From an uncultured Pelagibacteraceae bacterium (GTDB lineage: Bacteria > Pseudomonadota > Alphaproteobacteria > Pelagibacterales > Pelagibacteraceae), in contig CACETY010000005.1 in NCBI GenBank assembly GCA_902562645.1, positions 1 through 64,000 of the forward strand: a DNA stretch of 64,000 bases, in the 5' to 3' direction. Of this stretch, positions 2,758 through 5,705 are shown piece by piece. A program made the position numbers and the translations under genes. Under the pieces are notes generated by a model. The model had not been told where the DNA came from. It worked only from the letters and a program-made list of their open reading frames with translations, and searched no databases. The first letter of the stretch is position 1; each line of letters starts with the position of its first letter.

Positions 2758-3772
2758 AATTTTAATATTAAAAAATGATAGAGCTGGTGATTTATTTACT
2801 TCCTTAACTTTAATTTCTTCACTAATTCATAGATACAAAGATATGAAAATATATCTGTCAGAATTAAATTCAGGTTTTTCTTTTTTTTTTAAAAATAAAA
2901 AAATTAATAAAGTGAATTTTAACTTAACTTTAATTGATAAATTTTCGATTTTTTATGATATTTTAATTAATGATTATAAAAAAATTTATATTTTAACCCC
3001 AAAAAATTTTTATTTTATCTTACCTTTTATTTTTAGAAATATTAAATTTTATGCAATAGTTTATGATGGATTTGAGAGGTCTCGACCGTCTAATTATCTT
3101 AGAAACTATTTATTTAAATATAAAGTAATTTATAGAAATAAAATCAACAAAAAAAGTTATCGTCAATTACAAAATGACTTATTAGATGATGATATTGTCT
3201 TAGATATCCAACATAGTGCTTTGTTTGTACCTAAAATTACAAAAAGCTTAAAAAATATATTGCCCAATAAATATATTTTGTTTCAATTTAGATATCTTTT
3301 TTTTGAACAGCTAGGGTGGGGTGTTAATGAATTTGATTATCTTATTTCTCAATTAAGTAAAAAATACAAGTATATTCTATTTTCCTCAGATATTGAAAAC
3401 AATAATAATACTAATAAATATAATGAATATTTTTTAAAACATTACTCTGTAATTGATTTAACAACTCAAACAAAAAATCAAAGCTTAAAGAATCCAAATA
3501 TATACTATCTAAAAAATATTAATTCTGAAAATCTATTTTATGTTTTGAATGAGTCTACAATGAATCTTGGAAAAGAAGGTTTATATAGTCATATTTCTTT
3601 TTTTCTTAAAAAAAAATGTCACAATTTATTCAATTTTAAAATACTTAAGAAAGAAGATATTTTTCATGAAAAGATCAGTTATTCCGAATGGTGTAGAGAC
3701 ATGCATTTTGGTTTTTCTTTTTTAAACAGTGATATAAAAAAAGCGACAAGAAAAATTATTAGAAATATTTAA
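2747..3772 (+). CDS. Glycosyltransferase family 9 / heptosyltransferase-like
   Basis: ILILKNDRAGDLFTSLTLISSL N-terminus typical of GT9; adjacent to other GTs. Confidence 0.6.
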   Translation: MSDKILILKNDRAGDLFTSLTLISSLIHRYKDMKIYLSELNSGFSFFFKNKKINKVNFNLTLIDKFSIFYDILINDYKKIYILTPKNFYFILPFIFRNIKFYAIVYDGFERSRPSNYLRNYLFKYKVIYRNKINKKSYRQLQNDLLDDDIVLDIQHSALFVPKITKSLKNILPNKYILFQFRYLFFEQLGWGVNEFDYLISQLSKKYKYILFSSDIENNNNTNKYNEYFLKHYSVIDLTTQTKNQSLKNPNIYYLKNINSENLFYVLNESTMNLGKEGLYSHISFFLKKKCHNLFNFKILKKEDIFHEKISYSEWCRDMHFGFSFLNSDIKKATRKIIRNI

Positions 3773-4686
3773 ATTTTTATTTTATTTAAGGCATTATTTT
3801 TAAATAAGTTTGCTTCTTGTATGTATCTTCTAACCATCTGTGTAGTTTTATGTCCAGTCATAGCCATAATATTACGCTCTTCTGCACCTGCTTCTGCTGC
3901 TGATGTTGCAAATCCAGATCTTAAACTATGTCCCCCATATAAATTTGGATCTAATCCTGCTAATGATGCATATTTTTTTATTGTTAGAGAAACTGACTTA
4001 TCTGAAATATTATAAATTTTACCCTCTGCAATGTTACTATATCTTATCCAATCTTTTATTTTTATAACTGGACAATATTCTTTATTACTGAAATAGGGTA
4101 TTGCTTTTACACTTCCTATACCCGCTTGATCCGTTTTTGATTTTTTAATGAATATTTTTAAACCTTCATCTACGAACTCTAAATCATCATAATCTAAATT
4201 AACTAGTTCCGATCTTCTAAACCCTCCAGAAAATCCTAGTAAAATTAATGATTTGTTCCTAATTCTTTTTTTTTCATTTTTTTCTTTCTCATCTATTACT
4301 TTAATAATTAATTTTAAATTATTGATTAATATAGGTTTTTTTGGCTTTTGATACGCTCCATTTACTCTTTTAATTCCTAATAAATTTTCTATTATAATTG
4401 GGTGATTTGTATCTAAATAATGACCTTTCATTTTATGTATTACTTTAATAGAAGCTATACGTCTCTTTAAAGTGCTAAATTTACTAGTTTTTGATAAATG
4501 TGTTAAATAAAGTGATAAAATTTTTGGCTCAGTTGGTAAATAGTTTAAACCATTCTTAACGCAAAATAGTGAGAAGTCCTTAAAGTCTGATTCGTAAGCT
4601 CTGACTGTATTATTTGCCTTTGAGTTTTTAAGATTTTTAACTGTTTCTAATTCTAATGTTTTTATGTCTGTAACAATATCATTCAT
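3769..4686 (-). CDS. Tyrosine recombinase / site-specific integrase
   Basis: Complete catalytic set: R in GGFRRSELVNL, K in KKSKTDQ, HSLR, TGHK, and Y in MVRRYI. Confidence 0.92.
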   Translation of the reverse strand: MNDIVTDIKTLELETVKNLKNSKANNTVRAYESDFKDFSLFCVKNGLNYLPTEPKILSLYLTHLSKTSKFSTLKRRIASIKVIHKMKGHYLDTNHPIIIENLLGIKRVNGAYQKPKKPILINNLKLIIKVIDEKEKNEKKRIRNKSLILLGFSGGFRRSELVNLDYDDLEFVDEGLKIFIKKSKTDQAGIGSVKAIPYFSNKEYCPVIKIKDWIRYSNIAEGKIYNISDKSVSLTIKKYASLAGLDPNLYGGHSLRSGFATSAAEAGAEERNIMAMTGHKTTQMVRRYIQEANLFKNNALNKIKI

Positions 4687-4692
4687 AATATA

Positions 4693-4717
4693 TTCCGATA
4701 ACCTTTAATTATCGGAA
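4693..4717. repeat. Inverted repeat TTCCGATAA-CCTTTAA-TTATCGGAA upstream of the integrase start (dif-like layout)
   Basis: 9-bp perfect arms with 7-bp spacer; inner arm ends ...ATAA / TTAT... Confidence 0.75.
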
Positions 4718-4768
4718 ATATAATATAACACATTTTATAAGTCAAACATTTAATGTAAAAGAATCTTA

Positions 4769-5430: not shown

Positions 5431-5705
5431 TCCCCGATATTCTACCCTGTTAAAAACTAAGTAAATTCAACGATAAAGTGATACATACAACCTACTCTAT
5501 CTGATATTATCAAAAATGAATTAAGAGGCAACTCTTAACTGACCAGCTGGGGAAAAACCGAGAGGTTCAAGCCCAGAGGGCAGAAAGCTCTGCAGAGTAG
5601 CGCTAAAATTGCAGGGTGGACGGCATGGCGGTAGCGCATACAACGACGTGCCAAAAACTACTGTTCTTTGTACCTGAAAAGGTGCAAGGAAACAGGGTTT
5701 TTTTT
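5431..5705 (+). ncRNA. Candidate structured non-coding RNA or cis-regulatory leader upstream of ogt-like gene
   Basis: Locally GC-rich in an AT-rich genome; stacked hairpins TTAAGAG-GCAA-CTCTTAA, AACC-GAGA-GGTT, GCAGA-AAGC-TCTGC, possible pseudoknot GCGCTA/TAGCGC with GGCATG/CGTGCC, and terminator hairpin plus T8. No family recognised; 5' end uncertain. Confidence 0.55.
5661..5705 (+). terminator. Rho-independent terminator
   Basis: CTGTTCTTTGTACCT-GAAA-AGGTGCAAGG(A)AACAG stem of about 15 bp followed by GG and T8. Confidence 0.82.

Follow-up and report, generated by a model that had tools for sequence, protein, structure and literature searches.

The gene for a single tyrosine recombinase and the inverted repeat immediately upstream of it are very likely (probability roughly 0.9) the dif/Xer module for chromosome dimer resolution in the SAR11 family Pelagibacteraceae. 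By analogy, the pair is best read as a single-recombinase dif/Xer system akin to XerS/difSL, XerH/difH, and Legionella XerL. A preliminary description of this DNA had proposed that the repeat could be the enzyme's own crossover site; this is supported by conserved pairing, single copy number, and terminus position, from which we infer strand exchange. SAR11, the most abundant ocean bacteria, would then have kept chromosome dimer resolution, run by a divergent single recombinase, contrary to published absence. A proteobacterial survey described Pelagibacter ubique as having no dif/Xer, ascribed this to genome streamlining, and reported no sign of loxP/Cre-like systems among proteobacteria that lack dif (Carnoy and Roten 2009, PMC2731167). 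The 'absence' of dif/Xer from Legionellales was overturned in 2022 by the discovery of XerL (PMC9765430). Searches of a collection of open-licence papers turned up no earlier description of a dif in SAR11.

The window analyzed here is a 64,000-nucleotide stretch (positions 1 to 64,000 of contig CACETY010000005.1) from an uncultured Pelagibacteraceae assembly of 1.22 Mb in 38 contigs; the closest recombinase to the one it encodes (97% identical) comes from uncultured Pelagibacteraceae single-cell genomes (SAR11). The proposed dif site, of arm class A, occupies 4693..4717 on the minus strand and reads TTCCGATAA-TTAAAGG-TTATCGGAA on the recombinase strand (TTCCGATAA-CCTTTAA-TTATCGGAA on the forward strand). 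The dif-like layout first described is thereby confirmed, with perfect 9-bp arms, a 7-bp centre, and a position 7-31 bp upstream of the recombinase ATG at 4686. A scan of the whole window allowing up to 3 mismatches returned this repeat as the sole match (0.05 expected), and the 1.2-Mb assembly held one additional match, bearing 3 mismatches. Perfect 9-bp inverted repeats with 4-10-bp spacers are not rare in such AT-rich DNA; with 8 of them in the window, the window by itself is no proof of function, and conservation decides. An IMES-2 RNA motif (Rfam RF02035, 162 bits) also lies in this region, at 5514-5654 on the plus strand, ~0.8 kb from the site.

Conservation is extensive. An equivalent site stands 6-17 bp upstream of the orthologous tyrosine recombinase in 154 of 156 loci, the remaining 2 being truncated, and the tie between repeat and neighbouring gene that had been proposed is thus borne out. 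Upstream of the gene, each of the 30 orthologous loci compared first has a symmetric site, and the DNA beyond it varies among genomes; single-linkage clustering merged all flanks into one group and so does not discriminate among them. The search for further copies in this and sister genomes, recommended at the outset, found the core 17-mer GATAATTAAWKGTTATC in 104 of 147 family genomes, spanning 13 of 14 genera, always as a single copy; a reversed control pattern had no occurrence across the same 147 genomes. Two genomes lacking the exact 17-mer (G122 and G115) carry identical arms around the centres TTTATTG and TTTATGG. Over all loci the arms measure 9-14 bp and the centre 7 bp, which fits the ~28-35 bp of a single-recombinase dif, and host centres are almost invariant (TTAATGG, TTAATTG). 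The arms fall into two classes: class A, TTTCCGATAA...TTATCGGAAA, at 102 loci, and class B, TACTAAYGATAA...TTATCAATAGTA, at 52 loci, 3 of them assigned by hand. The recombinase was found in all 11 single-contig family genomes searched; it was missing from 6 of 22 genomes with at least 90% completeness, all 6 being fragmented assemblies. In these six (G112, G119, G128, G148, G170, and G183, at least 93% complete), no PF00589 protein turned up, the recombinase included, which may reflect an assembly gap at the terminus or genuine loss.

Arm class follows the enzyme more closely than it follows taxonomy. On the recombinase tree, parts of which are weakly supported and in which long branches meet, class B forms a single clade (SH-aLRT 100) bar one long-branch sequence. 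Arm class changes twice on this tree, against 25.9 changes in shuffles, and genus changes 11 times; site and enzyme therefore appear to travel together, and the sequences suggest that the module has probably been transferred between genera. Such tracking of arm class with the recombinase tree would follow from recognition of the arms by the protein.

The recombinase itself (3769..4686, minus strand; 305 aa) combines a SAM-like N-terminal domain with a Phage_integrase catalytic domain (Pfam). R157, K184, H253, R256, H279, and Y288, labeled as the catalytic set by motif position, are unchanged across 31 sequences. Family genomes normally have a single PF00589 match, this recombinase, and no XerC/XerD pair; most sister-family genomes have two strong matches, XerC- and XerD-like. 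None of the NCBIfam cut-offs for XerC, XerD, XerS, or XerA is reached, the scores falling far below (73 bits for XerD and 63 for XerC, against cut-offs of 330 and 335). In a profile search of solved structures, XerD matched over the catalytic domain (E 1.7e-11) and Cre over the full length. An AlphaFold model (pLDDT 81.8, pTM 0.67) likewise has Cre of phage P1 as its best fold match (TM 0.72, E 8e-11) and XerH as its next; the nearest solved relatives include Cre. Identity to Cre is 17%, and solved structures include many redundant Cre entries; the likeness is resemblance and no proof of descent. Beyond the family, relatives at E <1e-20 are sporadic (34-36% identity, in 3 of the 114 other genomes of the class that were sampled), and no comparable site precedes them in the 2 of 3 that could be read. 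All 12 genomes tested, G000 included, encode an FtsK with a gamma domain.

Two side observations concern other tyrosine recombinase genes. Three complete SAR11 genomes carry extra tyrosine recombinases (G117:C1:676679, G109:C1:1204798, and G163:C1:11153), possibly of prophage or island origin. Sister-family genomes have a palindrome, GATAATCAYCCATTATC or GATAATGGGTGATTATC, ~25 bp past the part of a Xer gene that encodes the catalytic domain (G069:C15:17079, G085:C2:91144, G068:C1:73440, and G077:C9:43351); it may be a dif or a terminator.

Gene and site lie at the replication terminus. In each of the 11 single-contig genomes searched, recombinase and parB are separated by 0.46-0.50 of the chromosome; these genomes are partly syntenic and so do not provide 11 independent tests. 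In the fully read G126 (1,308,759 bases), the site at 998,842 falls between the cumulative GC-skew maximum (995,998) and the TA-skew minimum (1,002,174), and gene orientation flips at the site. In five further genomes the local cumulative skew maximum lies, relative to the site, at -1827 (G012), +559 (G103), +1046 (G105), +3640 (G117), and -1501 bp (G135), placing the site less than 4 kb from the local GC-skew shift in all 6 genomes examined closely. Sampled skew in G109 and G140 is consistent with a terminus position, and the window's own genome is a fragmented assembly with weak local skew. The KOPS-like motif GGGNAGGG shows weak polarity, with 13 co-oriented copies versus 2 in a genome of 29% GC. 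The preliminary description had advised comparing the repeat with the true chromosomal dif, advice that misses that the repeat itself very probably is that dif.

The mechanism we infer comprises recombinase binding, strand exchange, dependence on FtsK, and autorepression. With two dif sites paired at the terminus, their inverted arms would be bound by four copies of the one tyrosine recombinase, and strand exchange across the 7-bp centre would turn a chromosome dimer into two monomers. FtsK probably positions or activates this reaction, and bound recombinase probably represses its own gene as the site overlaps the promoter.

Dif-like sites also occur in phages. The cultured pelagiphages HTVC106P, HTVC035P, Greip, and HTVC024P have class A or B sites between genes, with no integrase annotated in the listed stretches, and three of these four carry neighbouring A and B sites. 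The best site of each scores 0.83-0.96, against at most 0.80 in control pieces of host genome; the second sites of HTVC024P and HTVC106P score nearer background, and in HTVC010P itself the top score, 0.79, is at background level (control pieces 0.75-0.80). Scans of IMG/VR for the exact cores returned 64 and 50 contigs. A related terL is encoded on 66 IMG/VR contigs, with the site upstream of terL in 65, and both arm classes were scored on 26 of the 66 at a threshold that admits weak sites. Since viral contigs were chosen for carrying the site, its presence is expected; that choice does not account for its constant location next to terL or for the second class. None of these contigs carries the recombinase gene. 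Dif-like sites beside terL in pelagiphages lacking an annotated integrase are thus recorded at L350, L351, L354, L355, and the 66 IMG/VR loci.

Slightly favoured is the view that HTVC010P-related pelagiphages, described as exclusively lytic because they have no lysogeny genes, use the host's single Xer recombinase at these terL-side sites, either integrating at the SAR11 dif or circularising or monomerising their genomes; phage P1 circularises or monomerises its own genome with Cre/lox. None of 171 host loci contains a phage terL, hence there is no integrated example. Among viral sites with complete arms, the centre is identical to a host centre in 14 of 72; this speaks against simple integration in most cases and would be compatible with self-recombination. 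Gene content has led to Greip and HTVC010P being called exclusively lytic, and infection dynamics in the majority of isolates suggested lysogeny or chronic infection (PMC8163748). A Bacteroidetes origin of class A arms, hinted at by dif-using microviruses (PMC3091885), was considered and dropped, as the site-bearing viral contigs have pelagiphage-type terL. At its end, one viral contig (L380:8001-8066) carries the final 22 codons of the SAR11 recombinase at 86% identity; the 3' end of that gene may serve as an attachment site, or the contig may be an assembly chimera.

The overlap with the promoter invites a different account, in which the repeat is an autoregulatory operator only, with the recombinase or another dimeric regulator controlling the promoter and no recombination taking place there. 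The recombinase promoter lies at 4717..4745 on the minus strand, with a -35 box TTGACT (4745-4740), a 17-bp spacer, and a -10 box TATATT (4722-4717) that overlaps the outer arm of the site. A TTGA[CT]-N16-18-TATAAT-like promoter occurs in 150 of 154 loci (3.9% of random window pieces), with a 17-bp spacer in 145, and in 119 the -10 box ends 4 bp short of the GATAA core. Bound recombinase should hinder transcription from a -10 box so placed, and the sequence suggests that autoregulation through the site is likely, alongside the crossover role; the two roles are compatible. A purely regulatory site would suit the conserved overlap in nearly all loci and the invariable position just upstream of the gene, but it leaves without reason the placement at the terminus, the conserved 7-bp host centre, and the identical arms beside phage terL on contigs that carry no recombinase gene. 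Such a restricted function is quite improbable. The operator proposed in the preliminary description is accordingly plausible, given a promoter that overlaps the site in 150 of 154 loci, and is not favoured as the sole role.

Less probable still is that recombinase and site form a mobile or invertible element, such as an attP/attB or integron-like unit or a phase-variable promoter. Flanks do vary between genomes, glycosyltransferase genes lie on the left side of the window, and recombinase types are scattered over genera. Against this, the core is single-copy everywhere, with no second core flanking, orthologues extend throughout the family, most genomes have no PF00589 partner, and the position is locked to the terminus. 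Neither several or flanking att copies nor a sporadic distribution, the marks of mobile elements and integron integrases, was found. The suggestion that the crossover site would make this a mobile or invertible unit is consequently not supported, given a single-copy core and a gene held opposite the origin in every single-contig genome searched. The least credible account is a hairpin or terminator formed by RNA of the 5' leader. It would suit a repeat lying near where transcription is expected to start, and arms of class A are able to pair, but neither class varies in sequence, a conserved mismatch (left TACTAAY, right TACTATT) unfavourable to pairing is retained by most class B arms, there is no T-run, and the terminus position and phage copies go unexplained. 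Terminator, hairpin, and invertible-switch readings were all rejected for the reasons given above.

The reading as a dif/Xer module places the SAR11 pair among several known systems. With XerCD/dif it shares a terminus dif with inner ATAA/TTAT and the presence of FtsK gamma; XerCD uses two recombinases, whereas SAR11 has one, far below the cut-offs for either. Cre/loxP resembles it as one recombinase acting on an inverted-repeat site, the layout of loxP being 13-8-13, but Cre is a plasmid or phage gene and the SAR11 recombinase a chromosomal gene at the terminus. XerH/difH of Helicobacter and Campylobacter is similar in having one chromosomal recombinase with dif near the gene at the terminus (PMC2731167, PMC5357621); XerH differs in length (354-362 aa, versus ~305-318 aa for the SAR11 enzyme) and in its dif, and the two are 16-18% identical in structural alignment. 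XerS/difSL of streptococci and lactococci pairs a 356-aa enzyme with a 31-bp site whose centre is 11 bp (PMC5357621), in contrast to the 7-bp SAR11 centre, and the XerS model score of the SAR11 recombinase is far below cut-off. Close linkage of site and gene, 6-17 bp in 154 loci, is as in XerS and XerH modules.

XerL/dif of Legionellales likewise involves a divergent single recombinase missed by homology searches, and has long uninterrupted arms, a terminus position, and exploitation by a mobile element (PMC9765430). In L. pneumophila, xerL lies more than 400 kb from dif, whereas the SAR11 gene and site are adjacent; SAR11 is likened to XerL here by description. The two arm specificities, swapped among genera, would constitute a natural data set on protein-DNA recognition, and the SAR11 module would join XerS, XerH, and XerL as another single-recombinase system, at work in some of Earth's most abundant cells.
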